A stretch of DNA of 64,000 nt from Pomacea canaliculata (taxonomy: Eukaryota; Mollusca; Gastropoda; Architaenioglossa; Ampullariidae): assembly GCF_003073045.1 (NCBI RefSeq), contig NC_037596.1, forward strand, positions 9,693,553 through 9,757,552. Reading direction: 5' to 3'. A program made the position numbers and the translations under genes. Below, piece by piece: positions 2,528-63,058 of this stretch. Positions within the stretch are counted from its first letter, which is position 1. Each line of letters begins with the position of its first letter. The notes below the pieces were generated by a model. It worked only from the letters and a program-made list of their open reading frames with translations. It searched no databases and was not told where the DNA came from.

Positions 2528-4606
2528 ATGGCCGTAATCACCATCCTTACTTTGCTTGTAATGCTCAAGCACTGCTCAGGTAAAATGTTATTCAGCAGAA
2601 CAAATAGAGAAATAAAATAAACAAATAACACATGAATAGTAGTTATAATAATATAATGATGAGAAAGTGGCGATAATAATGATTATATTTACAAAAGGAA
2701 TGACAGGAGCAAAAGAAATAAGGACAAGTATGCGGTTAACCTTACGCTTCTTCAAACTAATACAGTTGTTTAAATTAGGCATATTATTAAAATTGTTGTT
2801 GGTACTAAACTCATTAGAAAAAATGATTTTTTAACAAATGAATGCCTTTACAGGTCATGCGATCGAAGGATGCACTCCCGGTGAACATAAAGATGTGCCA
2901 CGGTATGAAATGAATTACAGATTCAAATGTGTGGACGTCCCAGCCAACTACTATGTGGCCTGGTTGATCACAAGACAGGACCCTAGCAATGGCAATCAGC
3001 TAACCAATACTGATGTGTGTTCTATGACCGATGACAGGTGCCATTCATATTCTGAGGGTTCAGGAGCAATTAGGGTTAATAACATCACAAGTATACTTTT
3101 CTTCTACCCCAGCGTTATCAACGACATCATCGGCATCACGTGTAGAGTCTTTGACAAGGAGTTAGCGCGCACCCTGTCCTACATCAACGACTATACCTGT
3201 AGTATCACCTTGTTAGGTAAGTACATAGATCATTCCTTTTTCTAATTGAAGGTTTTTAAGCTTTTATGATGGAGGTTCCAAGGCTTTGAGCTTAATAAGC
3301 ATTAGTAGGAAGGACAATGTTGCTTGATTATCTTATGTTCGTAAAGGTAATGAGAACGAAAATGAAGGTGGTACATGCTTTGACTTCCTGTGCTTAATAT
3401 CTTTATACTTTTTCTCTCCTTTCATACACTTGAAGTAAACCTCCCTCGTCCCTAGATTCTTGTATTCTCACTCTGAATTCTGCAAGAGTCATTATCACAG
3501 CACCGAAAAAAAAAATATCGTATTGAAAATAATTATCAAATTCAAATGTCGAAGAACCAGCAACGGCAGCCGGCTGGCAGTTAGACAGATAAATAGAAGG
3601 AGAAAATTATAATCTCAGAATGAAGAAAAGAAAGCGAGACGAACTTCGATGTGGAAACGTAAAAATATTAACATTGATATCAGCTCCTTTACACTTGCTT
3701 TAATTTTTATTCCGTTTCCCATCTACATTTCTTATGAAATATCACGTTTATTTCATCTGATGTATTCATATCTCTACACAGAAAACATTGTAGGCTGGCT
3801 ACCGATTCGTAGAGGGAAGATACTTGTATAGCAATCTTTTTTTGCAGTCAAAATTCATACCATATACAGCATTAAAAAGATATTGCACTGATCGTTTTCT
3901 TTGAGTGCACGTGAGTGTAAAGAAGCCCCATATTGAAATAATTTTCTTTTTATGTGGTAGATATTTTATATTTTCACCATTATTTGCATTTCTTCCATGT
4001 TAATTTTTTTAATGAATATTTCTAGATACTCCAAAAATGGATTGCGTACTGCAAGCAACTCACCACGGCTCCAGAAGAACAGTATTGTGTACAATTACCA
4101 ATATCGTCGATCTAACACAAGACTACCAATGCGAATTCACTGAGGAGCTGGAGGTACGGGATTTCTAGAATATTTGATATGGTAACAAGTTGCTTCCGCG
4201 GGGTAATAATAATCTTTTAGGCTCACAAACGTTTTCAGAAAAATCCAATCAAGTTAACAGGAATATGTCAGCAGGTGATTTTACATGCACTAATTCTAAT
4301 GTTTTGCTATTGTAAACGCTGCAAAAATATTTTTTTTCAACTGCAACATCAATATCTGAATCAACGGCATAGTCAAAATAATTTGGATGGTTGTAGAATG
4401 GAAGTCCTGGGAGGCTGCTGGTTGGGACGCAAGATGGAACATACGAACTTCATGTGAACCAAAATCCCCCAGGTCCTTCAGATGGCGATTGCTCCTTTTC
4501 ATTTGACCCTGCACTGGGAATCGATGTCGTTCTAGTGAACCTTGGTCCCTACAACGTCCAGGCCAGAGCTGAATTCCTAGAAGCCCAAGCTTCCCCATCT
4601 GAATGA
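2528..4606 (+). CDS. Secreted two-Ig-domain protein A (250 aa)
   Basis: Four coding exons with clean GT-AG sites: 2528-2579, 2854-3216, 4026-4153 and 4397-4606, joined in phases 1, 1 and 0, giving 250 aa and a TGA stop. The untranslated part of the first of these begins at 2438 after TTTCCAG. Residues 1-17 are a signal peptide (MAVITILTLLVMLKHC). Domain 1 (exon 2854-3216) has the Ig pattern FKC, a Trp about 12 residues on, then ITC and NDYTC. Domain 2 spans the last two exons, with VLCTI and DYQCEF. There is no transmembrane segment, so it is probably secreted. It is a diverged paralog of genes B-D, and its last exon matches theirs only weakly (GDCSFSF against GFCSIQF). AATAAA follows at 4771. 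The ligand is unknown. Confidence 0.78.
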
Positions 4607-5429
4607 GAAAAGCCGCATCTTCCCGTTCAATGTTTTTTTTTCTATTTTAAAAGCATCTAACCTTCCATGTGCAATTTTAAATCTGCCAGACTTGAAGTAG
4701 TCTGATGAACAGATTTTTGAACATCTTTGTACGAATGTCAAGATGTTTCGATGTATATGGAATAAGAAACAATAAATAAAACGAAGCAGTATATAAGTTT
4801 TGATTGTCAATATCTGAAGAATGGGTTTTCTGATGAATGTAAAGAGGACGAATGAGAGTGTCTAAAAATTAAAGAAACTGCAGATGTCCGACTTCTAAAA
4901 TCAACTGTATGTCGCACACTCGCAATCACACAGGCACAGCAGTACACAGTTATCTATTCAGCCAGAATATATGGTTAAATCAAAATTATATATACACGTA
5001 TCTGTAAAATACATTTTAGATATTTAATATCTCTAAATATTCATATTTGTCGGGAGCAAAGCATCTTCCTGCGTCTATACAATCAACACAATAACCATAG
5101 AAGCATTGTAGTTAGCACCAGGAACATTAAAGAACAGTAGATTCAAATAAATTATAAAGTGTGTGTGTGTGTTACTGCATTAAGCATTCCAAGTTGTATT
5201 GAATATTTAAAAGTTAATGAAATTCACCGTCTCACGGATTTCAAGACACGCACAGTCACACTGCATCCGATGATAATGAACATGGCAATGAAGGGATTGA
5301 AATCATGCACACAACAGACAGCATTCAAACTATGAAAACTCTATTAAAGGAAAGTAAAGATGAGGCAATGACAATAAACGACAGCTGCCTGTTATTAAAT
5401 TGCCCACGTTTGAATATTTAGTCACAAAA
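4607..5429. other. 3' end of gene A and intergenic AT-rich DNA
   Basis: Overlapping AATAAA signals at 4771-4780 probably end transcript A. The rest is AT-rich without a supported gene. A weak copy of sequence also seen around 900-1000 and 6600 (ACAGTCAC followed by an ACAGCATTCAAACT-like stretch) marks the approach of the next duplicated unit. Confidence 0.5.
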
Positions 5430-5839
5430 ATGCGCAAAAAAAAAAAATGTTTGGTCCTTCGTTCATCTTGACAGAAACCACACATGGTGACCGCCATCTA
5501 ACCCCGGTATGATGTAGTAAGATTTAATACTGTTTGTCTTTTTTAAACAAGACTATATCACTTACAGAGGCAGGAATTTAGAAAAAAAATTAACAAAGCT
5601 TCAAACCATCAATGCTTTATTCTTTTGTAGTAGTTTTAGTACTAACAGTTTTTTTGTTTGAATCTTCTGAAATGATCTTATATTTTCACCCCCCTTGCCT
5701 CTTGAATGACAAACAAGATTGCATCAAGTCAGTCGTTTAAGTGTCCATACCCAAACTTGATGAAAGATGAATCTTTTACTGCTTTCACTCACGATTGTCT
5801 TGGGGACATCTAGGTGGGCGTCCCCATCAAATGCAGCAA

Positions 5840-5921
5840 CCAATCAGTGCTAGTTACCTGTCCCTGTCAATGAGATGTGATAGTATCACAATCACTCTCA
5901 CCACTTCACTGTGCTGCTAAG
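5840..5921 (+). promoter_or_regulatory. Promoter and noncoding first exon of Ig gene B
   Basis: The CCAAT box at 5840-5844 and the following leader match those of genes A, C and D. At the place of the exon-1 donor, the GCTGGTAAG of C and D reads GCTGCTAAG here, so the GT is lost. The nearest substitute is AAG|GTGTGG at 5922. The TATA-like box of gene A is not kept. Confidence 0.5.
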
Positions 5922-5959
5922 GTGTGGAGGTCATGTGTATCTGAATGTTTTTAATGTAA

Positions 5960-6975
5960 AAGCATATCCACCGTACCACTACCTACCACAGCTGTGGATA
6001 TCTGTATATGAAGAGAGTATAGCAAGACTACAACATGTAGATTGTAGATAGTACTACCACATGCACTACAACAGACAGGTAAAGAGGAGGTGGACGGTAG
6101 GGTGACATTTGTAGCCCCAGCCTCCTCATTCTCCTCCTGAAAGTCTTTCCTACTAAAACCATTTAGTAAATAAGAAGAACAAATGATCGAGTGTCCAAAC
6201 ATTCTTTCACTTAGTTTTCAAAAATATTTTCCCTAAATTTTGTTCCTTGATATGATATGCAAACCTGGAGCAATTTTTTCATTCTGTGGCTGTAATATAT
6301 AAATATATACCATTATTAAAAATCATCCCAGCGAAACATTTTGTTTGTTTTTTATGTGCAGTACAGGTTTTCATCTTCTTTGATTCTTGCTTTCAAAATA
6401 ATCAGGCATCCATGCTTAACTTGAAAATTATTAAAAAAATATTACCAGACTTCGGCTGTTTTGTGTTCGAGCAAAATCGTTCGTTCCTCTTGATGGAAAC
6501 CACAAATGGTGACCGCCATTAAAACCCTTTATGGAATTAATACGCTTCATTTGTTTTGATAACGGGATTCCATTGACTGAATGTCCGAGTCCAGCAGTAA
6601 CTATCCTTGTGGAACAGAGTATATGATGCTTACAGTCACGCAAACAGAAGATAGCCATCAAACTTTGAAATTTCCATGAAGTTGAAATTTAAAAAAAGCA
6701 TAGACGCGCAAACAAAAAAAAAAGTTTTCCTTTGTTTATCTTGATGGAAACCACACATAGTTACCGCCTAATAACTCCTGTGTAATATCATGATTTAATC
6801 ATCTTTTTTTTTCTTTAAATCAGGTGGTATCAACTACAGATGTATGAACAAAAAAAAAGTAAAACAAAACAATAACATGAACATGTCGATAAACCAACCA
6901 TGGCTTCATATTCTTGGCGGTATTTTTTTCATTTTTCTTTAGTGGTATTTCGCGATCTTAAAAAATTATGAAAAA
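5960..6975. other. Intron 1 of gene B, repeat module
   Basis: Long first intron of the Ig gene B transcript. It holds two copies of the short GATGGAAACCACA motif (6475-6535 and 6724-6782), about 250 bp apart, as in units A, C and D. The flanking text is almost identical in units C and D. No coding frame is supported. Confidence 0.6.
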
Positions 6976-7169
6976 CTTTATTGCTGTTCCTCCCATCAGT
7001 GACACCTGCACTGTTTTGTTGGACGGTTTGTTGGTCTCCCGACGAAAATAAATCGAACCAGCCAGTGAGTAAGCAGCATCTCCATCTCCTTCACTTTGAC
7101 AGCTACACAGGACTGGTAAGGTCGCCTCTTCTGAGCTCCTGTCTCGTAGAAAACCACCAATGTGACAAA

Positions 7170-8813
7170 GTTTCTCTGACTATCTATCTATCTATTCCTC
7201 TTCGTGCATCAGGTTGCACATAAGGCCTCAACCAGAGTCGCCACCGATGTCGATCGGCTGAAACCCGCTCTAGGTGACCCCATGTCCAGCCCTTTCCTTT
7301 CATCTCCCTTTCCACTGTTCTTCTCCCAAGTTTCCTTTGGGCGACCTCGTTTTCTTCGGCCGTCTGGAGTCCATCGTAGGGCGACTCTGGAGAGGTCTGC
7401 TGTCTGCTGGCGGAGCACATGTCCAAATCCATCGCCAACGCCTTCGTTGAAACCTGCGTGGTGATGGACTCGGTTTCAGTTCTTCGGTGGAGTTCTTCGT
7501 TGCTGATGGTATTTGGCCAAAGATGTTAAGTATGCGCCTGAGGCATCTGTTTTGGAAGACGTCAAGCTTGTTACTGATAGTTTTGGTCATCTTCCAGGAT
7601 TCTGATCCGTAAAGGAGGGTGCTGATCACATTTGACTTGAAGATTCTCAGTTTGATCTTCTGGCTGATGTTTTTTGCCTTCCATGTGCTCCTGAGTGAGG
7701 CGAAGCCTGGCTGGCTTTTCGCCAGTCGGGCTCGAATCTCCACCTCCGCATCCCGGTGTTTGACATTTTGGACCCAAGATAGGTGAAACTGTCAACTTCC
7801 TCAATCTCTTCTCCATTTAGTTTGATTGCTGTCTTGGACTCTGGCGTTTACTCTCATACTTTTCGTTTTCTTTGTGCTGACCCTTCAAGCCAAGGTTTCC
7901 AGCTGTTTCTGAGAAGGCCTTTGTTTTTTCCTGCATGTCTTGGTGGCGGTGTGACAGCAGAGCAATGTCATCAGCAAGTCTAAGTCTTCCAGCGCTGTTG
8001 TTGCTGTCATAGTCATGGTCCATCTGATCCCTCTCCTCTCACTGTCGGTGGAAGTCTTCATGATACAGTCCATGGCCAGGATGAAGAGGAACGGCGACAG
8101 AATGCAGCCCTGCTTCACCCCGGTACTGACGTTGAAGGGGTCTGTGAGCTCTGTGTCACAGACAACCTGGGATTTGAAGTCGCTGTACAGCATTGCAATG
8201 ACCTGAACAAGTTTTGCAGGGACTCCGTAATGCCTCAGGATCTTCCATAAGGTCTCGCGGTGGATGCTGTCAAAAGCCTTCTCCAGGTCGATGAAATTGA
8301 TGTACAGCGGTGTGTTCCATTCGTTGCTCTGCTCCAGAATCTGTCGCAGAATGAAGATGTGTCCAGGACGAAATCCTGCTTGCTGTGGTCGGAGGTCTTT
8401 CTCAAGAGTTGCCGTCAGTCTTGACAAAACAATCTTGCTGAAGACCTTGCTGGTGAGGGAAAAGAAGTTATGCCCCTCCAATTATTGCAGTCTCCAAGAT
8501 CTCCTTTCTTGGGTAACTTGAAGATGAGCCCTGTCTTCCAAGCAACAGGGAGCTGCCCTGATTCCCAAACTTGCTTGAAGATTTCAGTCAGCTTGGGAGC
8601 TGTCACATTTATATCTGCTTTCAACATCTCTGCTGTTATTCCATCTGCCCCTGGTGCTTTGCCGCTCTTCATTGTCTTGACTGCTGCTGTCACTTCTTCC
8701 AGGCTTGGTGGGTCTGTGCAGATGTCAAGGTCTATAGCTGCTGGCTGGATGTCTGCAAGCTGAGGGGGATCTGGTCTGTTCAAAACCGACTCAAAATGTT
8801 GTTTCTCTGACTA
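7170..8813 (-). mobile_element. LINE copy 1 (RTE-like, 5' truncated, broken)
   Basis: A 5'-truncated non-LTR retrotransposon on the minus strand, element 7183-8800. It is flanked by the 13-bp target duplication GTTTCTCTGACTA at 7170-7182 and 8801-8813. Its 3' end carries a short (GATA)n tail, as RTE-type LINEs often do. The RT reads KAPGADGITAEM, FIDLEKAFDSI and GVKQGCILSPFLF. Compared with LINE copy 2, which sits at the orthologous site in unit C, this copy has several frameshifts and a small deletion removing the residues after GFRPG. It lies inside intron 1 of gene B. The RTE clade call is tentative. Confidence 0.85.
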
Positions 8814-9045
8814 AAATAGTCAAAAATATGTTTCGGAAAATTTTAGAAAATCATTATTTCAACCTTTGCCTAAATTATGAAGCATTTGTTCATTTGACCA
8901 TGTCATTAAAGTGAAATCTTTATAGACTTATTATTATTTGCACCACAATTTTCGGTTTCCAGGTTTTTGTGCTTGTCTGTTGGGGAAAAGATCTCGAGCA
9001 AAACAACTTCTCTGTTTTCATAATCCGGGCATTTCCATCAACACA

Positions 9046-9142
9046 ATGATGTCTGTACTTGCAAGCCTTGTTTTGCTTGTAATACTGAAGGACTGCTCAG
9101 GTAGGCCTATCGCTAACCACAATAAGCAAAAAGTACTATAAA

Positions 9143-9211
<69 letters not shown>

Positions 9212-11045
9212 AGAAGACTACGTAGAGCTAAGATAAAACTAAAAAAATGAGAGAATAAAACTTTTGGTCATTTATTTAGTTATTATATTTTGATATTTTC
9301 CTTATAGTATTTTATACAATTCAAATGACATTTAGTGTGAAAATGGCAACTGAATTTTTTAATGTGAATATTTGTTTGTTGTAAAATAAATTTTAAAATA
9401 TTATGTACTACATTTCTAGGTCATGCTATCGAAGGGTGCAGTTCTGACTCTCCTATGGATGTGGATCCGGCTCCCCTATTTTTTAAATGTGTGGACCTCA
9501 CGCCTGACCAGCATGTGTCCTGGCACCTGTTGAAAAGGGATGGCAGCAATAACGATGAAATCAGCCTCTTGAATGTTGCGGTGTGTTTACGGGGTGAATT
9601 TTGCAGTTCACTGCTCACTGGTGCTGCCGCAGAACGATCGGATGACGGCTCCAGCGTTCTGAAAATATTCTCACCTGCTGTGCTGGAGTCCTTGAGCATC
9701 ACCTGCAGGGCTTTTGATAGCATAACTACGTACAGCACCACGTACATGACCGACTACACCTGCAACTTAGCCATAAGAAGTAAGTACATAGATTATTTAT
9801 TACCCCTTAATTTTGAAATGAAAAACTGTTTAGCTCTGTGGCTTGGTGTGTAGTGAGCGTGAGCAGCAAGAAGGTCGAGTTGGTCCCTGATTTTTTCAGC
9901 AAAGATGTAGACAACAGAAATGGTGATGGAAGCTTTCAGAGAGCACACAAGATTGACCACAAGTTTAGTCCCTTTGTGGTCATCAAGCTACACCTTTCAT
10001 TGTCTTATTATACACTTGTACAACCTCCCTCTACCCTAGATCTCTGTAATGCTTTTGATTGAGTTTTGGAGGGATCGAGACCTTCCACACAGCCGTGGTG
10101 TTCTCCGACATATAGAAATAAATGATAAAAAAAAACAATTCCTGAAAGTAAAATCCACAGAAAAGAAACGGATCCTCACTTAGCTAAGGCGTTTTCGTGG
10201 ATGAACAATCTATTCCTCTTCTGTTTATCATAAGCATTTATGAGATCAGATTACTGGATTTCTGCTCATATCTCTATAAGCCTTCTTGTTGGCTGCCCAT
10301 GAAAAACGTTTAGTTCATACAGATACTTTTGGAAGTATTAATCTCCACTTTTGAATTTTATTTCTCGCGATTTATTATTGAATTTTTTTTTGTGTGTAAA
10401 TGAATGAAAAGTTCCTACATTTTGCTTTTAGTTGTTACCTTATTTTGTGACAGCTGCCGTCTCATATGTCACCATCTTTTCGTTTTATTTCTCACATATC
10501 CATTTTTAAATGGAAGCGGTGATTCTCATTAAATATGTTTCCAGATAACCCAACCATGTCTTGCGGGATAGAACCAAATCAGGACCAGACCATGTATACC
10601 GCAGGCTGTCGCATTGAAAATATTTACATCATAAGCCGACATTACTCATGCCTATTCATTAAGCTGGCCGAGGTACGAGTTATTTAATAACTGGTATGGT
10701 GAACAGTTTATTTCAAGTTATTCTTCATTATACAGGTTTTCAGTACAGAAAAAGTTGTAGTAGAGTGAAAATTAATGCGATACGTTTATGCTATTACACG
10801 CCTTTGCTTGAACCGCCTATAGTTTTATTATTGTAAATGCTGAATTTATTTCCTGTGCAAAGAAACGTTGCACAAAGAATTCTGTATTATTTTATTAAAT
10901 TATATAATAGTTTGTTACAATCCATTTGTATAACTCATTATCATTATCTTCCTCGTCATCTTCGACGTCCTTCTCCTCCTCATTTTCATCATCATCATAA
11001 TCGTTATTGTCACCACCATCATCATCGTCAATTGAAAAGAAATGA
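9046..11045 (+). CDS. Secreted two-Ig-domain protein B (probably truncated)
   Basis: The exons match gene C: 9046-9100 (signal peptide), 9420-9779 (Ig-like domain 1, with FKCVD, VSWHL, ITCRAF and TDYTCNL) and 10545-10672 (first half of domain 2). The last exon differs. Before it, GAAAAGAAATG replaces GAAAGAAAATG of gene C, which moves the acceptor AG by one base. Splicing there gives Lys then TGA at 11043-11045, a product of about 182 aa lacking the last 65 residues. One further base is missing later in that exon, near 11129; the ancestral stop is at 11233-11235. The gene may be decaying, may use another acceptor, or the bases may be misread. AATAAA lies at 11391. Confidence 0.6.
9143..9210 (+). 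repeat. (GAT)n microsatellite
   Basis: About 22 GAT units lie in the intron after the signal-peptide exon of gene B. Units C and D carry only about 4-5 units here (near 16915 and 23498), so the array expanded in B after duplication. It accounts for part of the unit length difference. Confidence 0.95.
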
Positions 11046-11235
11046 AATTTTCAAAATGTTGGTTTGTCAAGGATGGGACTGAAGAGATCTTCGGGAATTC
11101 CACCTTCCTAGTGACAGAAAGACCAGTCCCGTTTCAGGCTTTTGTTCTATCCAGTTTCCGAGTGCAGAATACAGCTCGCTGATTGTACGCCTTCATCCTA
11201 ATGAAGTGCAAGCCATCGCCAATTTAAGAGTGTGA

Positions 11236-12880
11236 TGTGCTCACAAACCACTCTTCTCTTATAATTTGTATTCAGAGGCGTCTAAATTTTAAGTCTCCCA
11301 TACTTGAAGCAGATTTACTTATCTTTAAAGACGCCGTCGAAGAATTGTCCAGCTGCTATACATGGAAGTGTTATCGTATGATGAAAAAGAAATAAAAATG
11401 AAAATTTCTTGAATGCTGATGGTCAGTGTCTAAGACATGAATGTTCTTATGTGGGTGAAATAATGGGCGAGAGATGATTGAGTTACAGTGACATAAACAA
11501 CTCATGCAAACGATTCTATTTTTAGAAATATTACCATTTCGTCACTTCCTGCTTTCTGGACAAATCCAGAACGTGATTACGACAAAACATTAATATAATA
11601 GTTATGGTATTTCTTGTGCCTCTTCGTCATAAAATACCACCGGAATATGTTTTAGTGATAATGTTCTGTTTCTGGCTCTGTTCCTGAGCGCTCGTGTTGA
11701 CCTTTAAATGAATTACAGTTCTGAAAAAATTGCAAGCAGCTTTATGAAAAAAATATGATTACTTAGAAGACATTTTATTAAAAGCTAAATCACCATCAAG
11801 CTGATATATAAGCCTACAGGGTAAACGGATTAGTATGAATTGTCTTCTATGTAAAAGAAGCAATCCACTCTTCAGGAACAGGCAGCTTTAACAATCTTTT
11901 TGACCGTAAGACCTGTTGAGATAAATTCTCTAGGATTTTAGCCATTGAATATAGCTTACTGTCTTTGTTTTGCATACATCAAAAATTAATGACTATTTTT
12001 TAAACTACTATCTTGTTATGACATTTTTTCAGCTCGCATACACTCTTTTTGTTTCGTTTTCACTAGTTGCTATTAGAGTTTAAGTTTCAGTTACAAGATG
12101 TCGTGCAAAGATGATGTGATCTGTCAACTGGAAAGAGTGTATTGTTTACGAAATTTATATGTTGTGTCGCTTGAACCTCGGAAACTGTCTCACGATGCTT
12201 AAATCTTTACTAACAAATAAATGGTAAGTGTGAACATCAGATAAAATATCGTGGGTCACCTGTCAGAAAAAAAAACATCTGAGCGGGATGAGTTTTGTGC
12301 TTTTACTGGAAGACAATCTTCTATTGCCAAGACTTGAAAAATAAGACAAAGTTTACACATTCAATATGCAGAGGTACATGATTTATTTTTTTTTTTTTTA
12401 TTATTATTATTTTTGCTTTGGCTTTCAGACTACGAGTAGAAGAAAGTTGAAAGAAGTGTTTAATTAATGTCACATTTATATAATCTATTGTAATTACAAT
12501 GTCACTCGTCGAATCACAGCTATACACATGGATATTCATCTAAGAGAAATAATCTAAGGAACAAAAACGAAGATGCAAAATGAGTGAACAAAACTTTAAA
12601 AGAAGTATAAAAATGGTGGAGTAAGGTGGGAAAGTGGTGAGGGAACGAATTATAGCTTAGGATAAACAACGATCACGACTTTTTAAACCCGTTGATGACT
12701 GAAACATATACTAACCCGGAAAAGGAATCTCAAGTACAATTCACTGACAATAACTCAAATAAAGAAAACATTTGTAAGACTTGTCTGGAATAATCCAGCA
12801 GAAGTATTTTTTTTGAAAAGGACTAGCAAAGAGATCGCTGGATTTTTAAGAATTGTCATAAATGATGAATGTTTTTTGTC
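11236..12880. other. Region between Ig gene B and GC-rich block
   Basis: AT-rich DNA highly similar to 18963-20600 and 25580-27230. It includes the presumed 3' UTR of gene B and, further right, the presumed 3' flank of the minus-strand receptor fragment. No coding frame is conserved among the three copies. Confidence 0.6.
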
Positions 12881-12884
12881 AGAT

Positions 12885-13085
12885 GTAAAGTCTGGGGCAG
12901 GCTGCGGTGGGCGGTTACAATGTTGTTACAGACGAAATGAAGAATTGTTCCAGCTTTGGTACATGGTGCGAGACGCTAAACAGCACCGCGCGATGTCTGT
13001 GTGTATTCCGGGTGGCGGCTGCTGCAGTGCGGGTGGATGCTGTTTGCTGCTGCAGAGTCACAGCACTCTCGGGGTCAGATGATGC
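12885..13085. other. GC-rich conserved block, copy B
   Basis: About 200 bp of clearly higher GC content, rich in CTGCTGCAG-like words, conserved in units B (here), C (20608-20810) and D (27235-27440). The frames that read Cys-rich are not conserved between copies: unit D has an insertion of about 15 bp and loses 2 bp relative to B and C. A coding role is therefore doubtful. It lies about 170-370 bp beyond the 3' end of the minus-strand receptor tail, so it may be 3' UTR or a noncoding element. Confidence 0.45.
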
Positions 13086-13255
13086 CAGAGACTTAGTCTT
13101 GCTTAGTCCTTATAATATGTAAAATCGTTACAGTTTCCAAGCACTGATAAAATAGCTGTTCTGTCTAACTCGTTTCTGCTAGAAATATTTTATCAGGTTT
13201 TTCTCGTTATACACGAAAATAATAAATGACTTTTTTAAAGCCAAGCCGCTCAGTC

Positions 13256-13618
13256 TTAAGGATGCTGTATTTTAACGGAGGAAATGAGTGTTTTGTGCAT
13301 ATTCATGCGGCGAGATTTCAACATCTTCAGCAACCGTAGCCGCCGCAGTTTTCTTCTCGCTTCACGAAGGACGCTCACGGCGTACAGGACAGGGTTAATG
13401 AAGGAGTTCAGAGGACAGACCAGTAAGGCCAGGACACTGAGGACATCAAGAGAATACGATGTTCCCATGTGAGTCGTGACCCCCACGAAACTCATGAGAG
13501 AGCATGACAATGTTTTTGTAACTAGCAGAAGGGTTAGTCGTCGAGTGGCTTTTCTTTCCACAATCTCGGGATGATCGTCTGGACGCAAGTCTCCTGATGT
13601 TGGCTTCTTTATGCTGTC
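13256..13618 (-). pseudogene. 3' fragment of GRL101-like receptor, unit B
   Basis: An open frame of 123 codons corresponds to the last ~117 residues of the receptor at 27612-31658: third intracellular loop, TM6, TM7 with NPVLY, and the basic tail ending KIQHP. Homology stops abruptly just before SIKK. Immediately beyond lies the CCAAT promoter region of Ig gene C, which marks the duplication breakpoint. It has no stops or frameshifts, and its differences from the full gene are mostly conservative. It lacks five of seven helices and the whole ectodomain, so it cannot be a functional receptor. Confidence 0.85.
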
Positions 13619-13623
13619 AGCTA

Positions 13624-13700
13624 CCAATCAGTGAGAGTTACCTGTCCCTGTCAATGAGATCTGATAATATCACAATCACCCTCACCACTTCACTGTGCTG
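13624..13700 (+). promoter_or_regulatory. Promoter and noncoding first exon of Ig gene C
   Basis: CCAAT box at 13624-13628; the leader exon would end at 13700 with donor GCTG|GTAAGG. Only about 6 bp separate it from the truncated minus-strand receptor frame, so this sequence could drive both directions. No TATA box is seen. Confidence 0.5.
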
Positions 13701-13709
13701 GTAAGGTGT

Positions 13710-14900
13710 GGAGGAGCATATCGACCGTACCACTACCTCCGACAGCTGTGGATATATGTATATGAAGGCAGTATAGCAAGACTACGACATGTAGATGGTA
13801 CTACCACATGCACTACAACAGACAGGTAAAGAGGAGGTGGACGGTAGGGTGACATTTGTAGCCCCAGCCTCCTCATTCTCCTCCGGAATGTCTTTCCTAC
13901 TAAAACCATTTAGTAAATAAGAAGAACAAATGATCGAGTGTCCCAACATTCTTTCACTTAGTTTTCAAAAACATTTTTCTTAAATTTTGTTCCTTGATAT
14001 GATATGCAAACCTGGAGCAATTTTTTTCATTCTGTGGCTGTAATATATAAATATATACCATTATTAAAAATCATCCCAGCGAAACATTTTGTTTGTTTTT
14101 TTATGTGCAGTACAGGTTTTCATCTTCTTTGATTCTTGCTTTCAAAATAATCAGGCATCCATGCTTAACCTGAAAATTATAAAAAAATATTACCAGACTT
14201 CGGCTGATTTGTGTTCGAGCATAATCGTTCGTTCCTCTTGATGGAAACCACAGATGATGACCGCCATTAAAACCCTTTATGGAATAAGCTTCATTTGTTT
14301 TGATAACGGGATTCCATTGACTGAATGTCCGAGTCTAGCAGTAACTATCCTTGTGGAACAGAGTATATGATGCTTACACTCACGCAAACAGAAGATAGCC
14401 ATCAAACTTTGAAATTTCCATGAAGTTGAAATTTAAAAAAAGCATAGACGCGCAAACAAAAAAAAAATGTTTTCCTTTGTTTATCTTGATGGAAACCACA
14501 CATATTTACCGCCTAATAACTCCTGTGTAATATCATGATTTAATCATCTTTTTTTTTCTTTAAATCAGGTGGTATCAACTACAGATGTATGAACAAAAAA
14601 AAAGCAAAACAAAACAATAAACATGAACATGTCGATAAACCAACCATGCTTCATATTCTTGCGGTATTTTTCATTTTTCTTTAGTGGTATTTCGCGATCT
14701 TAAAAAATTATGAAAACTTTATTGCTGTTCCTCCCATCAGTGACACCTGCACTGTTTTGTTGGACAGGTTTGTTGGTCTCCCGACGAAATAAATCGAACC
14801 AGCCAGTGAGTAAGCAGCATCTCCATCTCCTTCACTTTGACAGCTACACAGGACTGGTAAGGTCGCCTCTTCTGAGCTCCTGTCTCGTAGAAACCACCAT
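13710..14900. other. Intron 1 of gene C, repeat module
   Basis: Equivalent to 5960-7160. Two copies of the GATGGAAACCACA motif lie at 14225-14283 and 14464-14525. No coding frame is supported. Confidence 0.6.
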
Positions 14901-14909
14901 GTTGACAAA

Positions 14910-16568
14910 GTTTCTCTGACTATCTATCTATCTATTCCTCTTCGTGCATCAGGTTGCACATAAGGCCTCAACCAGAGTCCGCCACCGATGTCGATCGGCT
15001 GAAACCCGCTCTAGGTGACCCCATGTCCAGCCCTTTCCTTTCATCTCCCTTTCCACTGTTCTTCTCCAAGTTTCCTTTGGGCGGCTTTGTTTTCTTCGGC
15101 CGTCTGGAGTCCATCGTAGGGCGACTGTGGAGAGGTCTGCTGTCTGCTGGCGGAGCACATGTCCAATCCATCGCCAACGCCTTCGTTGAACCTGCGTGGT
15201 GATGGACTCGGTTTCAGTTCTTCGGTGGAGTTCTTCGTTGCTGATGGTATTTGGCCAAAAGATGTTAAGTATGCGCCTGAGGCATCTGTTTTGGAAGACG
15301 TCAAGCTTGTTACTGATAGTTTTGGTCATCTTCCAGGATTCTGATCCGTAAAGGAGGGTGCTGATCACATTTGACTTGAAGATTCTCAGTTTGATCTTCT
15401 GGCTGATGTTTTTTGCCTTCCATGTGCTCCTGAGTGAGGCGAAGGCCTGGCTGGCTTTCGCCAGTCGGGCTCGAATCTCCACCTCCGCATCCCCGGTGTT
15501 TGACATTTTGGACCCAAGATAGGAGAAACTGTCAACTTCCTCAATCTCTTCTCCATTTAGTTTGATGCCGTCTTGGACTCTGGCGTTCACTCTCATACTT
15601 TTCGTTTTCTTTGTGCTGACCTTCAAGCCAAGGTTTCCAGCTGTTTCTGAGAAGGCCTTTGTTTTTTCCTGCATGTCTTGGTGGCAGTGTGACAGCAGGG
15701 CAATGTCATCAGCAAAGTCCAAGTCTTCCAGCGTTGTTGTTGCTGTCATAGTCATGGTCCATCTGATCCCTCTCCTCTCACTGTCGGTGGAAGTCTTCAT
15801 GATCCAGTCCATGGCCAGGATGAAGAGGAACGGCGACAGAATGCAGCCCTGCTTCACCCCGGTACTGACGTTAAAGGGGTCTGTGAGCTCTGTGTCACAG
15901 ACAACCTGGGATTTGAAATCGCTGTACAGCATTGCAGTGACCTGAACAAGTTTTGCAGGGACTCCGTAATGCCTCAGGATCTTCCATAAGGACTCGCGGT
16001 GGATGCTGTCAAAAGCCTTCTCCAGGTCGATGAAATTGATGTACAGCGGTGTGTTCCATTCGTTGCTCTGCTCCAGAATCTGTCGCAGAATGAAGATGTG
16101 TTCGGAGCAGGATCGCCCAGGACGAAATCCTGCTTGCTGTGGTCGGAGGTCTTTCTCAAGAGTTGCCGTCAGTCTTGACAAAACAATCTTGCTGAAGACC
16201 TTGCTGGTGAGGGAAAGAAGTGTTATGCCCCTCCAATTATTGCAGTCTCCAAGATCTCCTTTCTTGGGTAACTTGAAGATGAGCCCTGTCTTCCAAGCAA
16301 CAGGGAGCTGCCCTGATTCCCAAACTTGCTTGAAGATTTCAGTCAGCTTGGGAGCTGTCACATTTATATCTGCTTTCAACATCTCTGCTGTTATTCCATC
16401 TGCCCCTGGTGCTTTGCCGCTCTTCATTGTCTTGACTGCTGCTGTCACTTCTTCCAGGCTTGGTGGGTCTGTGCAGATGTCAAGGTCTATAGCTGCTGGC
16501 TGGATGTCTGCAAGCTGAGGGGGATCTGGTCTGTTCAAAACCGACTCAAAATGTTGTTTCTCTGACTA
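14910..16568 (-). mobile_element. LINE copy 2 (RTE-like, 5' truncated, RT frame open)
   Basis: Element 14923-16555, between 13-bp target duplications GTTTCTCTGACTA at 14910-14922 and 16556-16568, with a (GATA)n 3' tail. The frame 14949-16538 encodes 529 aa. It has SGKAPGADGITAEML (about 40-54), GFRPGRSC (137-144), FIDLEKAFDS with the first catalytic Asp (169-178), GVKQGCILSPFLF (227-239) and FADDIALL (275-282). A C-terminal region with LLYGSES and RRWRWIGHVLR follows. The apurinic endonuclease and 5' end are absent, because truncation happened at insertion, so it could not move by itself. Unit D has the unoccupied target at 23140-23152. The RTE clade is a tentative call. Confidence 0.9.
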
Positions 16569-16800
16569 AAATAGTCGAAAATATGTTTCGGAAAATTTTA
16601 GAAAATCATTATTTCAACCTTTGCCTAAATTATGAAGCATTTGTTCATTTGACCATGTCATTAAAGTGAAATCTTTATAGACTTATTATTATTTGCACCA
16701 CAATTTTCGGTTTCCAGGTTTTTGTGCCTGTCTGTTGGGGAAAAGATCTCGAGCAAAACAACTTCTCTGTTTACCTAATCCGGGCATTTCGCTCAACACA

Positions 16801-18962
16801 ATGATGTCTGTACTTGCCAGCCTTGTTTTGCTTGTAATACTGAAGGACTGCTCAGGTATGCCTATCGCTAACCATAATAAGCAAAAAATTCTATAAAGAT
16901 AATGATTACATCATGATGATGATGATGAAAGAAGACTACGTAGAGCTAAGATAAAACTAAAAAAATGAGAGAATAAAACTTTTGGTCATTTATTTAGTTA
17001 TTATATTTTGATATTTTCCTTATAGTATTTTATACAATTCAAATGACATTTAGTGTGAAAATGGCAACTGAATTTTTTAATGTGAATATTTGTTTGTTGT
17101 AAAATAAATTTTAAAATTTTATGTGCTACATTTATAGGTCATGCTATCGAAGGGTGCAGTTCTGACTCTCCTATGGATGTGGATCCGGCTCCCCTATTTT
17201 TTAAATGCGTAGACCTCACACCTGACCAGCATGTGTCCTGGCACCTGTTGAAAAGGGATGGCAGCAATAACGATGAAATCAGCCTCTTGAATGTTGCGGT
17301 GTGTTTACGGGGTGAATTTTGCAGTTCACTGCTCACTGGTGCTGCCGCAGAGCGATCGGATGACGGCTCCAGCGTTCTGAAAATATTCTCACCTGCTGTG
17401 TTGGAGTCCTTGAGCATCACCTGCAGGGCTTTTGATAGCATAACTACGTACAGCACCAGGTACATGACCGACTACACCTGCAACTTAGCCATAAGAAGTA
17501 AGTACATAGATTATTTATTACCCCTTAATTTTGAAATGAAAAACTGTTTAGCTCTGTGGCTTGGTGTGTAGTGAGCGTGAGCAGCAAGAAGGTCGAGTTG
17601 GTCCCTGATTTTTTCAGCAAAGATGTAGACAACAGAAATGGTGATGGAAGCTTTCAGAGAGCACACAAGATTGACCACAAGTTTAGTCCCTTTGTGGTCA
17701 TCAAGCTACACCTTTCATTGTCTTATTATACACTTGTACAACCTCCCTCTACCCTAGATCTCTGTAATGCTTTTGATTGAGTTTTGGAGGGATTGAGACC
17801 TTCCACACAGCCGTGGTGTTCTCCGACATATAGAAATAAATGATAAAAAAAAAAAAAACAATTCCTGAAAGTAAAATCCACAGAAAAGAAACGGATCCTC
17901 ACTTAGCTAAGGCGTTTTCGTGGATGAACAATCTATTCCTCTTCTGTTTATCATAAGCATTTATGAGATCAGATTACTGGATTTCTGCTCATATCTCTAT
18001 AAGCCTTCTTGTTGGCTGCCCATGAAAAACGTTTAGTTCATACAGATACTTTTGGAAGTATTAATCTCCACTTTTGAATTTTATTTCTCGCGATTTATTA
18101 TTGAATTTTTTTTTGTGTGTAAATGAATGAAAAGTTCCTACATTTTGCTTTTAGTTGTTACCTTATTTTGTGACAGCTGCCGTCTCATATGTCACCATCT
18201 TTTCGTTTTATTTCTCACATATCCATTTTTAAATGGAAGCGGTGATTCTCATTAAATATGTTTCCAGATAACCCAACCATGTCTTGCGGGATAGAACCAA
18301 ATCAGGACCAGACCATGTATACCGCAGGCTGTCGCATTGAAAATATTTACATCATAAGCCGACATTACTCATGCCTATTCATTAAGCTGGCCGAGGTACG
18401 AGTTATTTAATAACTGGTATGGTGAACAGTTTATTTTCAATGTTATTCTTCATTATACAGGTTTTCAGTACAGAAAAAGTTGTAGTAGAGTGAAAATTAA
18501 TGCGATACGTTTATGCTATTACACGCCTTTGCTTGAACCGCCTATAGTTTTATTATTGTAAAATGCTGAATTTATTTCCTGTGCAAAGAAACGTTGCACA
18601 AAGAATTCTGTATTATTTTATTAAATTATATAATAGTTTGTTACAATCCATTTGTATAACTCATTATCATTATCTTCCTCGTCATCTTCGACGTCCTTCT
18701 CCTCCTCATTTTCATCATCATCATAATCGTTATTGTCACCACCATCATCATCGTCAATTGAAAGAAAATGAAATTTTCAAAATGTTGGTTTGTCAAGGAT
18801 GGGACTGAAGAGATCTTCGGGAATTCCACCTTCCTAGTGACAGAAAGACCAGTCCCCGTTTCAGGCTTTTGTTCTATCCAGTTTCCGAGTGCAGAATACA
18901 GCTCGCTGATTGTACGCCTTCATCCTAATGAAGTGCAAGCCATCGCCAATTTAAGAGTGTGA
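16801..18962 (+). CDS. Secreted two-Ig-domain protein C (246 aa)
   Basis: Coding exons 16801-16855, 17138-17497, 18268-18395 and 18765-18962, phases 1, 1 and 0, giving 246 aa. The untranslated start of the signal-peptide exon is 16718, after TTTCCAG. Signal peptide MMSVLASLVLLVILKDCSG. Domain 1 (about 20-138) has FKCVD, VSWHL, paired Cys in AVCLRGEFCSS, then SITCRAF and TDYTCNL, an Ig-like core. Domain 2 has MSCGIE, AGCRIE, HYSCLF, KCWFVKDG and GFCSIQFPSAEYSSLIVRL, and ends NLRV. No membrane segment or anchor is seen, so it is probably secreted. Its last exon follows a low-complexity CATCATC tract serving as pyrimidine-rich region. AATAAA at 19117. This is the best-preserved copy with D. It resembles domains 1-2 of the receptor at 58-63 kb. 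Confidence 0.8.
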
Positions 18963-20600
18963 TGTGCTCACAAACCACTCTTCTCTTATAATTTGTATTC
19001 AGAGGCGTCTAAATTTTAAGTCTCCCATACTTGAAGCAGATTTACTTATCTTTAAAGACGCCGTCGAAGAATTGTCCAGCTGCTATACATGGAAGTGTAT
19101 CGTATGATGAAAAAGAAATAAAATGAAAATTTCTTGAATGCTGATGGTCAGTGTCTAAGACATGAATGTTCTTATGTGGGTGAAATAATGGGCGAGAGAT
19201 GATTGAGTTACAGTGACATAAACAACTCATGCAAACGATTCTATTTTTAGAAATATTACCATTTCGTCACTTCCTGCTTTCTGGACAAATCCAGACGTGA
19301 TTACGACAAAACATTAATATAATAGTTATGGTATTTCTTGTGCCTCTTCGTCATAAAATACCACCGGAATATGTTTTAGTGATAATGTTCTGTTTCTGGC
19401 TCTGTTCCTGAGCGCTCGTGTTGACCTTTAAATGAATTACAGTTCTGAAAAAATTGCAAGCAGCTTTATGAAAAAAATATGATTACTTAGAAGACATTTT
19501 ATTAAAAGCTAAATCACCATCAAGCTGATATATAAGCCTACAGGGTAAACGGATTAGTATGAATTGTCTTCTATGTAAAAGAAGCAATCCACTCTTCAGG
19601 AACAGGCAGCTTTAACAATCTTTTTGACCGTAAGACCTGTTGAGATAAATTCTCTAGGATTTTAGCCATTGAATATAGCTTACTGTCTTTGTTTTGCATA
19701 CATCAAAAATTAATGACTATTTTTTAAACTACTATCTTGTTATGACATTTTTTCAGCTCGCATACACTCTTTTTGTTTCGTTTTCACTAGTTGCTATTAG
19801 AGTTTAAGTTTCAGTTACAAGATGTCGTGCAAAGATGATGTGATCTGTCAACTGGAAAGAGTGTATTGTTTACGAAATTTATATGTTGTGTCGCTTGAAC
19901 CTCGGAAACTGTCTCACGATGCTTAAATCTTTACTAACAAATAAATGGTAAGTGTGAACATCAGATAAAATATCGTGGGGTCACCTGTCAGAAAAAAAAA
20001 ACATCTGAGCGGGATGAGTTTTGTGCTTTTACTGGAAGACAATCTTCTATTGCCAAGACTTGAAAAATAAGACAAAGTTTACACATTCAATATGCAGAGG
20101 TACATGATTTATTTTTTTTTTTTTATTATTATTATTTTTGCTTTGGCTTTCAGACTACGAGTAGAAGAAAGTTGAAAGAAGTGTTTAATTAATGTCACAT
20201 TTATATAATCTATTGTAATTACAATGTCACTCGTCGAATCACAGCTATACACATGGATATTCATCTAAGAGAAATAATCTAAGGAACAAAAACGAAGATG
20301 CAAAATGAGTGAACAAAACTTTAAAAGAAGTATAAAAATGGTGGAGTAAGGTGGGAAAGTGGTGAGGGAACGAATTATAGCTTAGGATAAACAACGATCA
20401 CGACTTTTTAAACCCGTTGATGACTGAAACATATACTAACCCGGAAAAGGAATCTCAAGTACAATTCACTGACAATAACTCAAATAAAGAAAACATTTGT
20501 AAGACTTGTCTGGAATAATCAGCAGAAGTATTTTTTTTGAAAAGGACTAGCAAAGAGATCGCTGGATTTTAAGAATTGTCATAAATGATGAATGTTTTTT
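18963..20600. other. Region between Ig gene C and GC-rich block
   Basis: AT-rich, collinear with 11236-12880 and 25580-27230. Polyadenylation signal of gene C at 19117-19122. No conserved coding frame. Confidence 0.6.
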
Positions 20601-20607
20601 GTCAGAT

Positions 20608-20810
20608 GTAAAGTCTGGGGCAGGCTGCGGTGGGCGGTTACAATGTTGTTACAGACGAAATGAAGAATTGTTCCAGCTTTGGTACATGGTGCGAGACGCT
20701 AAACAGCACCGCGCGATGTCTGTGTGTATTCCGGGTGGCGGCTGCTGCAGTGCGGGTGGATGCTGTTTGCTGCTGCAGAGTCACAGCACTCTCGGGGTCA
20801 GATGATGCCA
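20608..20810. other. GC-rich conserved block, copy C
   Basis: Same block as 12885-13085 and nearly identical to it. It is more GC-rich than its flanks and lies 3' of the minus-strand receptor fragment. Frames are open here but are not preserved in unit D. Confidence 0.45.
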
Positions 20811-21342: not shown

Positions 21343-21347
21343 AGCCA

Positions 21348-21424: not shown

Positions 21425-21429
21425 GTAAG

Positions 21430-27230: not shown

Positions 27231-27234
27231 TAAA

Positions 27235-58373: not shown

Positions 58374-61300
58374 ATGTTTACAGAAGTTAACAAGAGACAC
58401 CGAACACTTCTGCTTCTTCTGTTTGGTCTGTCACTCGTCGTGGGTAAAGACAATTAACAATTTTAATGTTACCTCGTCTGGTGTTGCCATTTATGTCTTT
58501 GATAAATAGTTTTTAAAAGTGTGTTAAGCTTTAAAAGGCATTAGCTCTCGTGTTATGTTACAAATGAACAGAGCAGCTTTTCTTCTTGCTTGTTTTCTTG
58601 GTCTTCTTGTTATTCTTGTTCTTTAAATTTATGTTCATTTTGTTGGTTTATTTTCTCATGATTCAGGTCTCAGCTTCTCACCACAATGTAATGATGGTAT
58701 TTGGGAAGTATTTTATGATCAAGAAACTTATTTCAACTGCACGGCTGAGGGAGAAGTGCAATGGACATTGCAACTAAGTAGTTACACGAGTCCTATCACA
58801 TTAGCTGTTTGTGATAAAAACTGTAACATGGTAACTACCTTTGATGGCCTGTACACAGCAAGAATCACTGACATTCACAAGACAACAATGATCATCAAAC
58901 CTAAGAACAACAGAAAGGTATATAACAATGTCGAGCTTGTGAACGGCAGACTGGAGTGTAGTCATGGAGATGATCATGATGGCTGTGGACTCAACCTTGT
59001 ATGTAAGTACACAACCTTTGTCGATTCATACCAGTGTCAGTTAAGCAGTGTATATCCTTCCTTAGGAGGATTTCTTAATATTTGTCAGTAACTCTTAATT
59101 ATAAAAACGTTTCTACTTCAACATTCTTGTGCATGTAGCAAATTTCATATCCAAAGCTTGCGATTGTTCACTTAAAGATTTTTTGTAAGCAAAGACATGT
59201 AGGTACAAAGTAAAATTTTACTCTGTATTGCATTATCTGGACTTGTCTTCATTAAAAGCCTTTTGTCGATCAAATATGCTTCGTCAACAGGCAGTGGGGA
59301 AAATGAAGCAAGAAACTGCAGTAGCTTAACCTTGATAGGACTGTTTAAGGGATAAACTTTACCTTCATTGCATGAACATTTATTCATTTCAAAATAAGAA
59401 AAAGTTAATTTATATAGCACTTTACCCTATTATCAAAGTGCCTTGCAAAAATTAAAATACATAATAATAACGGAAGCTGGTCTCAAAGCAAAGACTTCAT
59501 AGCATTCTCAGTTAATATAGCTTCTCATATTGTGAAGAAGGTGAATGCCTTCAGCGTAGATGTGAGGTGCAGCCTTGCATGTTATCTTCAATATGTTTAA
59601 GTTTATGCTTTAAAAGTAGTTGAAAACTATTATGACAATTGTATAGAGGCACAATTCACAATCTCTGGTGCAGTGGCATAACATTTGCCGATCATTCCAT
59701 CAATATAAGTCTTGTTAGAGCAACATGAATATGGTCCTTGTAAGCTTAGCTTCCTGCTGAATGTCTCTCCAACTATTCATCTCCATGATTTGACTCTCTC
59801 TTATTACTTTATTTTTTTTTTTTTTGCATTACAGATCCACCACAGCTTGTTTCATGTAAAGCATATAATACTTCATGGCTCATTGATGTGTTTTGTGTCA
59901 TCTAAAAAGCTTACTCCTCAAGGAAAATATATACATGTTCACTGATCCGAACACAAGCGGTATGTCTTAGCAGTACATATTTTACTGAATGCAAAGTGGA
60001 CAAAAAGTTCGTAAGACTAAAAAATAAAATATTAATATAACATTAAAGATTACAATTTAATTATAAATATTTTACGTTAATATATTTGTCACAGAATACA
60101 GTCTGCACAGTTTTTTTCTAAATCTTCCATACGAGCTCACGGTAGTAGTGGCAGTAGTGGTGGTGATGTAGAAGGAAGAAAAAGTAAAAAAGAAGAGCTT
60201 ACTTTCCGTAATGCTAAAGGAAACAAATTAAGTCTCCTCCCAACAGACTTTTTTGGAGTTTTTGTATTTTTGGTAAAAGACGTAAAAAGAAAAAGGTGTG
60301 ATTTAATAGTAATAGAAACCGTCTATTTTTAAAAGTTATGTACATTTTTCTTCTATCAGTCTAAAAATGAAATGCTAGAAACCGCTACCATGGTGACATC
60401 ACCGACCACCGAGAAGATGACCAAGGGTGAAGTGAAGGTTTCAGGTTCCTGTCAGTTCAACACAACACTCCCAAGAAAAGAGGGAAATTATTCGTTTCTT
60501 GTTTCTGTCTCTCCGGGAAAACGAAATTTTATGGCGGAGGACAAACAGTTTACTGTTGGTAATTATACTTCTCTTCGTCTTTTGAGTTTATTTAAAGTTA
60601 GCTTTTTAGAAAGGTACACAAAAATCCACATTTCCGCTCAAATATTTATGGACATCCAAACAGAGACACAAAAACACATTTATCCAAAGAGACAGTGAAA
60701 ACAGCCATAACAGCTCTTACTGGTAACTGGTTGCAGATGGAAATCCTGTAAAAGAGCAATTAATATAAGTTATGATGCCACATAGTCATTGAACCACTGG
60801 TGCTGCCGAGTTTGGGTGCTCAACAGACAAACTTGAGAGGCTGTTGATTTGACTGTATAGAGTAAGTTCTTAAACTAAGATATTCATTTTGCTCAGAGCG
60901 ACCCAGATCGCCAACAGCATTGTGTGGTCCACAGCCGTATGTGCTAGAAAATACTGCTGTCACCTGTACCTGCAGTACAACTAGCCTGGGACAACCGGCA
61001 GGGTACCTGAGATGGGTGACAGGTAACCAGACACACCAAAGCGCAGCAGTCACGAAAGAAAAACAGGAACCGACATCAAAAGGACTACAATATGATCAGG
61101 TTCTGATTCTGTCCGATCACGGCAGTACTTGGCTCAGGTGTGACATTATTTGGGGAGCCGAAGTGATTCCAGGAGAGAAATACACTGCTAGTGTGGGATG
61201 TAAGATTTTATTTAATATTTTGGCCTTGAATATTTAATATTAGTTAATGGCAAAGGAAGACAAGCGTTTAAGTGAAGAAATATAGTTAGCAACAAATGAA

Positions 61301-63058
61301 ATATGAGACTGAGAGGCTGTGTTTCTGTTTTTATTGGCATACCAGTTCAGGAATAGAGAGCTGAGAAAAACTGTGAGTCCATGTTGGCTATTGTATGTAG
61401 TCGTCTGCTAGACCTAACTTTTCGGGAGGTATCCCTCCTAAACTTGCAAGAAGAAATTAATCTAAAATATATGTGCTTTGGTCTAATTAGATGTCTGTTT
61501 TCCATTGTGTTTTGTTCTGTGTTTCGCTACTTATTTTTTAAACTCGTTTGATGAAATGTAACAGTTTGAAGACACATGATCTCATATTAGTGCATTATTT
61601 TCAGACGCTCCTAAGACACCACATCTTTCTTTCAAAGGCCTCGAGAGAAATCAGCAAGTCAAGGAAAGAGATCAAATAACTTTTATGTGTGAATCCGACG
61701 GTCGACCCAAACCAAACGTCTCCATTTATAACAACGACAACGACACTGTTCTCATAAGACACTCCTCTCCTGTCATCTACACTTTCATCGCTCGCTGTGA
61801 GGACACGGCTTTGTACACGTGCTCTGCGTGGAATGAGTTTCCCAGTCAGTCAGTGACCCCATCACTCAAACTGGAGGTGAACTGTAAGTAGGAAACGTAC
61901 CTAAACATAAATGTTTTTTGGTTTTTGTTTTCTTTTCTTTATATTTGTGGCTTCCATTGCTCTTGTAACACCCAGCCCTCAAACATTAATTATATTTATT
62001 ACATTTTCTGACGATGTAAAGTTTCATACGATCTTTAGTCAAATCCTTTGTCAATTTTACACACTTTACTTTCGCCTGCTTTTATTGTTTCTAACAAATT
62101 ATTCAAACCTCGAATCCTTTCATCCATACATCCCGGCACGATCAAGTTTCGAACAAAAACACAGGAGTTGAGCTTTGATATCATCGCTTACCCTGCACCA
62201 TACAAATATGAGGTGTGGTACGTACCACCAGTCATGAACACCACTGACCCCTTCTCAGGGAAGGTTGAAAGTTCAGAGCTGAATGTCACCTGTAAAACCT
62301 CCGATAAACGCCGTTACCTGTCCAGGTGCACTCTGATGATCTCAGGCATTCCGTCTAGGTCACATGGCTTGTACAAGGTGTATATCATTAATGAACATGG
62401 GGAAGAGAATTTCACTGCTGAGATCAGTTACGGTGAGTGAGTTTGTACAACATGAGCAGATTTGATCTTTCAAAATATCTCCATCAATTATTTTACTTAA
62501 CTTCCTTCTCCTCTCTTTCAGTCTGTTATATCTCATCTAAATCACAAAATACTCTTTTTCAGTCTTTGCGCATTGTTTTATTGTCTAAAGTGTCATTAAT
62601 AGGTAAACAAACTTTACTTGCCTAGGGATATTAAACAAGGAACATATTTTAATGATGGCTACCAATTTCTCCACAACCTCCAATCATAGAATTGTAGTTG
62701 ACACTACATACACTATATTATGTGTGTGTATATATACGTACAAAGAAACAGTGCCTCTCTCTCTCTCCTGAGCACACCCCCACCCATTTATACATATAAA
62801 ATCAGAATAAACAGTTTATGTTTCCATGTTATTTGTTTTCCAGCTGCCGACGAAGACTGGGATTCCTTTAACCCAGCAGTTATTTATGGTGTAGTGAGTC
62901 TCGTCGTCCTCATCTCTGGGATTGTTGTACTTATCGCTGTAATTAGGAAAGTAAAGAAAAGTAAAGGTATGCATAGTTATCATTTTGTAGTTTAATAAAT
63001 TAAGACAAAGTCGAATAATGCTAACATTTCTCACTATATTGCAGACTATATAAAATAA
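58374..63058 (+). CDS. Five-Ig-domain type I receptor (about 590 codons, one in-frame stop)
   Basis: Exons 58374-58443 (signal peptide MFTEVNKRHRTLLLLLFGLS...), 58667-59047 (Ig 1), 59835-59959 plus 60360-60558 (Ig 2), 60897-61199 (Ig 3, VTCTCSTT and WLRCDI), 61605-61876 (Ig 4, ITFMCES and ALYTCSAW), 62147-62432 (Ig 5), 62844-62966 (one TM helix, about residues 557-579) and 63045-63058 (tail ending DYIK). Domains 1-2 match the secreted proteins A-D in Cys layout and phases 1-1-0. TAA at 59903-59905 (codon 174) interrupts domain 2, with the Ig frame continuing through KIYTCSLI. The exon 2 donor (A|GTGTAT) and the exon 6 donor (GAG|GTGAAC) are weak choices needed to keep frame. It is either a recent pseudogene or a misread base. 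AATAAA near 63331. Confidence 0.68.

Follow-up and report, generated by a model that had tools for sequence, protein, structure and literature searches.

The 64,000-nucleotide stretch analysed here (the window, C7:9693553-9757552 of the Pomacea canaliculata genome, the assembly of which spans 440.16 Mb in 24 contigs) contains an array of four genes, A-D, of a plan that combines a signal peptide with two immunoglobulin (Ig)-like domains, and, near its far end, a broken copy of a transmembrane (TM) Ig receptor, R. The features of these five loci, in positions of the window, are:

2528..4606, plus strand: gene A, secreted two-Ig protein of 250 amino acids; exons 2528-2579, 2854-3216, 4026-4153 and 4397-4606, with splice sites, phases 1-1-0 and an open frame
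9046..11182, plus strand: gene B; exons 9046-9100, 9420-9779, 10545-10672 and 11072-11182; exon 4 shorter by one base than that of C, with an early stop
16801..18962, plus strand: gene C, secreted two-Ig protein of 235 amino acids; exons 16801-16855, 17138-17497, 18268-18395 and 18798-18962
23389..25579, plus strand: gene D, secreted two-Ig protein of 234 amino acids; exons 23389-23440, 23767-24126, 24886-25013 and 25415-25579
58374..63058, plus strand: receptor R, broken copy; signal peptide 58374-58443, domain 1 58667-59002, domain 2 59835-59959 and 60360-60558
distal exons of R, plus strand: domain 3 60897-61199, domain 4 61605-61883, domain 5 about 62120-62432, TM segment 62844-62966, tail 63045-63058
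59903..59905, plus strand: in-frame TAA inside a domain-2 exon of R; the same site is open in two relatives, R' (L074) and L077

In A-D, the first exon ends in phase 1, the first Ig-like unit occupies exon 2 (phase 1 to 1), and exons 3 and 4 together encode the second, which is split by a phase 0 intron; all splice sites are GT/AG. An earlier sequence-only reading of the window had described the four genes as a signal peptide followed by two Ig-like domains with introns in phases 1-1-0, and this is upheld by the gene models, their GT/AG introns and the hydrophobic N-terminus (signal peptides were called by eye and from hydropathy). A-D were classed as secreted-type because A, C and D have their stop codon where unit 2 ends, an AATAAA motif lies 151-209 nucleotides 3' of the stops in A-D, and the N-terminus is the most hydrophobic stretch in A and C by hydropathy. 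B is frameshifted relative to C by the one base missing from exon 4.

R opens on the plan of A-D, as the same reading had stated, with phases 1-1-0 in its first exons and 1-1-1 thereafter, and its two-domain head is followed by three further Ig domains, a TM segment and a tail some 11 residues long; the piece with domains 3-4 matches Ig_3, Ig_2, C2-set_2 and I-set in Pfam. As assembled, R reads as a pseudogene, because it carries the in-frame TAA and has lost the AG splice acceptor of its fifth Ig exon, which both relatives compared have kept. At the level of motifs the earlier description held only in part. The VSG-C segment was found in both types (PVSGFC in C, PVTGIC in D, PSDGDC in A and KVSGSC in R), whereas the Asn/Asp-x-Pro link between domains is present in A-D and is replaced by Tyr-Pro-Pro in R. 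The domain-1 exon of R does not end in DSYQC: it ends at 59002 after GCGLNLV, before GTAAGT, and DSYQC (about 59022-59040) is intronic. Overall, the core gene plans and, as set out below, the homology withstood analysis, while DSYQC and the receptor's link did not, and R and B proved to be broken.

Direct searches with A and C do not find R, nor does R find them, and profiles of the two-domain heads were therefore compared. The receptor alignment covered 29 of the 30 loci (L016, in which the domain-2 exon was not found, was left out) and the secreted alignment 13 of the 17 (L047, L051, L052 and L053 had no domain-2 exon at threshold; L070 was not among the 17). The two profiles aligned over 189 columns with a probability of 94.8 and an E-value of 5.4e-8 for the one comparison; their score of 56.8 was reached by none of 100 column shuffles (maximum 27.2), and the control scores were 11.7 for a reversed profile and 20.3 and 10.9 for tandem I-set domains. 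Reduced alignments (11 of the 29 receptor heads; seven secreted heads plus the locus L078) gave a probability of 97.3 and an E-value of 2.6e-11. Marks common to both families are an N-terminal Cys, a Cys-V-x-W core and A-x-C...C, and in domain 2 Y-x-C and a G-x-C with a later Pro near the end of the domain.

L078 (C7:28090501-28095500), about 18 Mb from R, bridges the two types, being a five-Ig TM receptor with a first domain of the A-D type (E-value 1.8e-14 with the secreted profile vs 0.082 with the receptor profile). Its first domain-2 exon fits both profiles (receptor 1.8e-6, secreted 9.2e-5), and its second fits the receptor profile (6.3e-8) and only weakly the secreted one (0.12). Three Ig exons and a TM segment follow domain 2, its exons 5-7 match exons 5-7 of R in order, and its first exons have phases 1-1-0-1. 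The profile-profile E-value, the shuffles and this bridge bear out the proposed common head, and support the conclusion that A-D and receptor domains 1-2 represent one homologous two-domain unit.

The further idea, that the array copies the nearby receptor, was rejected. A-D and R share 18% identity, and in an unrooted tree of 43 heads a branch with support 97/93 separates the 13 secreted-type heads from the 29 receptors and L078, with L078 and L071 forming long branches; of the receptors read, the one whose domain 1 is most like that of A-D, L078, lies some 18 Mb away. When the downstream exons of R and L078 were sought in the window (E<=1), no match was found beside A-D, so that no sign of truncation in place was seen.

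Domain 1 of C, folded from the four window copies as an alignment, gave a model with a mean predicted local distance difference test (pLDDT) score of 76.4, for which Foldseek returned 177 PDB matches at E<=0.001; the best 50 of these were for the most part variable domains of antibodies and T-cell receptors (TMq about 0.59-0.68), and the domain is predicted to be a V-type Ig domain. In Pfam and PDB sequence searches the head has no family. A, C and D matched no Pfam family at E<=10, and hence no FReD, C-type lectin, galectin, SRCR or chitin-binding domain, and R domain 1 matched none of the Pfam Ig families (I-set, V-set, Ig_2, Ig_3). Among 11 receptor heads, single members matched YidD (0.037) and V-set (0.093), and among eight secreted or bridge heads QueF_N (0.0023), RIF5_SNase_1 (0.012), DUF7516 (0.074) and DUF7494 (0.098), with no Ig match at E<=0.1; all of these are taken as chance, except perhaps V-set. 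In the PDB, C alone gave weak matches (best E-value 1.2, an antibody light chain), one head alignment gave two unrelated matches (0.25 and 0.63) and the other none.

Domain 1 of R had 53 matches in the genome at E<=10 (of which 49 reached E<=0.001), distributed as 38 at C7 9.65-10.53 Mb, 12 at C7 6.61-6.91 Mb and 3 on C1, and receptor domain 3 had 104 matches at E<=10, almost all on C7. Domain 1 of C had 17 at E<=10: eight on the plus strand at C7 9.67-9.72 Mb (A-D included), seven on the minus strand at C7 10.28-10.32 Mb in mirror order, one at C7 30.67 Mb and one on C13 that was taken as chance. The array thus continues beyond the window, with 15 secreted-type loci in two mirror arrays; a further group of 11 lies at C7 30.61-30.67 Mb and six bridge-type loci at C7 27.17-28.09 Mb, secreted and membrane members being interleaved on the chromosome. 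Fibrinogen-domain (FReD) matches, among those listed, cluster at C7 20.5-21.7, 27.6-27.8 and 28.6-29.1 Mb, with none listed at C7 9.6-10.6 Mb, and SRCR matches occur near C7 28.46-28.64 Mb and at 30.60 Mb, one of them at a distance of about 10 kb from the 30.61 Mb group. Recognition genes seem to be concentrated on C7.

These positions bear on whether A-D could be relatives of the VIgL (FREP-type) proteins, that is, the IgSF1-IgSF2 part of a FREP or CREP, or of an Ig-Ig-SRCR protein, without its lectin domain and working in the FREP pathway. In favour of this, the organisation is the same, with a signal peptide followed by a pair of Ig domains at the N-terminus, C7 also has clusters of FReD and SRCR matches, and PMC9178244 mentions a lectin of P. 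canaliculata that combines two Ig domains with SRCR. Membership of the FREPs as such is rejected, A, C and D having no lectin domain; the sequence-only reading was right that a fibrinogen domain is absent, since the three genes scanned contain no Pfam family of any kind. Moreover, the membrane branch has a TM segment and five Ig domains, and the one FReD neighbourhood searched (L079, from 167 FReD matches) contained no head exon above chance (best E-value 0.04). We regard such a kinship as less likely than not.

That the secreted genes were amplified in tandem, as had been proposed, was confirmed both by the 15 loci in mirror arrays and by self-aligning units within the window:

5834..27969, plus strand: three units in head-to-tail order, every one of them holding a single secreted gene plus the 3' end of a neighbouring LDLa-LRR gene on the minus strand (self-alignments)

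The B and C units are 97.2% identical across 7.9 kb, and the D unit, which reaches the minus-strand LDLa-LRR gene and takes in part of its 3' end, shows 92-93% identity over its main 4.9 kb. A has a mirror copy, A', at C7:10291607-10291969, and D has two, L042 and L043. The mirror array at 10.28-10.32 Mb could itself be an assembly duplicate, a second haplotype placed in inverted orientation, in which case the true copy number would be about half; the mirror order and the 94-96% identity of the partners of A, D and L046, introns included, are what this would produce. It is nevertheless unlikely, as L049 and L050 are 88.9% identical, the arrays hold 8 and 7 genes, and R and R', its best relative on the mirror side, are only 67-76% identical.

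In domain 1 of the pooled pairs A/A', C/B and D/D', 14 of 237 synonymous and 8 of 836 nonsynonymous sites had changed (p 2.7e-5), and these three pairs look to be under purifying selection; both this pool and the R/R' exon contrast described next were picked after the pair table was inspected. The ratio of nonsynonymous to synonymous divergence (dN/dS) was 0.07 to 0.58 for other array pairs outside the L049-L052 subgroup (17 domain-1 pairs were tabulated in all) and 0.38-0.81 for six receptor pairs. The near-identical first domains of B, C and D, together with the purifying signal, point to copies that would serve the dosage of one specificity rather than a diversified repertoire. For R and R', synonymous divergence (dS) was 0.14 in domain 1 vs 0.97 and 0.98 in exons 4 and 5 (p 5.8e-9), a mosaic which suggests that the tip of the receptor may have been exchanged or converted. 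Of seven close receptor pairs, R/R' is clearly mosaic, L021/L038 leans in the same direction (0.50 vs 1.27) and the other five are not clearly so.

Our preferred reading, to which we assign a probability of about 0.6, is that A-D are members of the secreted branch in a V-type Ig receptor family that extends across the chromosome, and probably act as soluble recognition factors. The two branches have their two-domain head in common exon for exon, the secreted genes stopping after domain 2 and the membrane genes adding three Ig domains and a TM segment, and tandem and mirror-image duplication has amplified one secreted type. From the cysteine pattern, domain 1 may contain three disulfides in both branches, and the heads of both may bind ligands of one class. 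Membrane members might signal through partners, given that the only tail read is about 11 residues long, and the secreted heads might act in haemolymph or mucus, either coating targets (as opsonins) or competing with the membrane receptors (as decoys). Decoy, opsonin and self-recognition are candidate roles of A-D.

Several observations weigh against this reading. Besides the absence of direct matches between A or C and R, domain 1 taken alone links the families weakly (24.75 vs a shuffle maximum of 19.0, with I-set controls at 21.0 and 13.6), and R domain 1 folded alone gave a pLDDT of 35.6, which is unusable. A stop codon closing domain 2 was read in four loci only, A, C, D and L076, the last belonging to the 30.61-30.67 Mb group and having two domain-1 exons. 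The broken state of R and B means that part of the cluster is decaying, and the L049-L052 subgroup of the array does not show the purifying signal (dN/dS 0.93-1.33).

The shared head and the interleaving on C7 would also suit secreted proteins that serve the membrane family as ligands or co-receptors, meeting it head-to-head as at a self-recognition locus, and Botryllus fuhc, as described in PMC3691228, has adjoining secreted and membrane-bound polymorphic genes. We consider this quite unlikely, the array copies B-D being near-identical. Apple snails are solitary, so allorecognition would have no obvious use in them except in gametes.

The remaining features of the window are:

27612-31658, minus strand, and 33152-36697, plus strand: divergently placed LDLa and LRR genes, both resembling LDLa-LRR G protein-coupled receptors (GPCRs) by eye
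about 13260-13616 and 20990-21340, minus strand: two partial 3'-end copies of the minus-strand LDLa-LRR gene, which travelled with the duplicated units of B and C
14949-16538, minus strand, with a second copy at about 7190-8810: reverse transcriptase open reading frame of a non-LTR-type element (RVT_1, 2.9e-35)
48302-54460, plus strand: probable single-pass membrane gene, with a signal-peptide-like exon near 48302 and a TM exon near 53965-54110

The plus-strand LDLa-LRR gene looks interrupted, because its open reading frame ends within a weak partial 7tm_1 match (10-79 of 260). The reverse transcriptase copies lie directly upstream of C and B and were duplicated together with both genes. The gene at 48302-54460 has a cysteine-rich exon near 51667-52003 without a Pfam match, and by eye 52690-53115 is framed by inverted copies of a short GC-rich gccggacgtttcgccgccgg-like motif, as at the ends of small transposable elements.

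These neighbours touch on a last alternative, in which the genes serve neural wiring or reproduction and not defence. Ig receptors are common in both settings, and clustering and duplication do not specify immunity. Large clusters, secreted forms and LDLa-LRR neighbours are, however, features that resemble, by resemblance only, the hyperdiverse regions of Biomphalaria sudanica, where PMC10875847 places LDLa-LRR GPCR genes among the hyperdiverse genes; a neural or reproductive role is thus held to be rather improbable.

If A-D are the secreted branch of the receptor family, the whole could, very tentatively and with odds well below even, be an undescribed molluscan complex, dispersed along a single chromosome, in which dozens of five-Ig receptors with a V-type tip and a secreted head-only clade take part in paired recognition of non-self (or self), distinct from FREPs and with tips exchanged between genes. 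Among the open-licence papers searched, none was recognised on a secreted/membrane Ig pair in apple snails, and no gene named in the balancing-selection section of PMC11417965 could be tied to the Ig cluster. As Pfam is blind to the head, about 80 first-domain exons may be missing from Pfam-based inventories of snail immune receptors. With a matched soluble and membrane pair in a caenogastropod, the logic of decoys or opsonins could be tested directly in a system other than the FREPs, and one could ask if resistance loci of snails in general are marked by clustered Ig receptors.

Compared by domain plan with known systems, A-D resemble the gastropod VIgL proteins (FREP, CREP, GREP) and the P. 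canaliculata Ig-Ig-SRCR lectin in being secreted and multigene, with an N-terminal Ig pair (PMC12074976, PMC9178244, PMC7588048), and differ from them in that A, C and D lack any FReD, C-type lectin, galectin or SRCR domain and that their kin are five-Ig TM receptors. The polymorphic TM clusters and hyperdiverse regions of Biomphalaria likewise contain single-pass receptor clusters, some with Ig domains, as on C7, although the FN3 and TMEM154 features were not seen in the snail Ig family, and a secreted array does not figure in that part of the Biomphalaria account (PMC10875847). Protochordate VCBPs are, like the predicted products of A-D, secreted proteins with no membrane anchor, and have V-type Ig domain(s), the fold predicted for domain 1 of C (PMC4757023, PMC4008424), but carry a chitin-binding domain, of which A, C and D have none, and belong to another phylum; no homology is claimed. 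Botryllus fuhc-sec and fuhc-tm, like the snail family, are linked secreted and membrane recognition genes (PMC3691228), whereas the snail forms have a homologous head in common and form large multigene clusters. As working analogues of the secreted/membrane head, the VCBPs and Botryllus fuhc-sec/fuhc-tm are the nearest.

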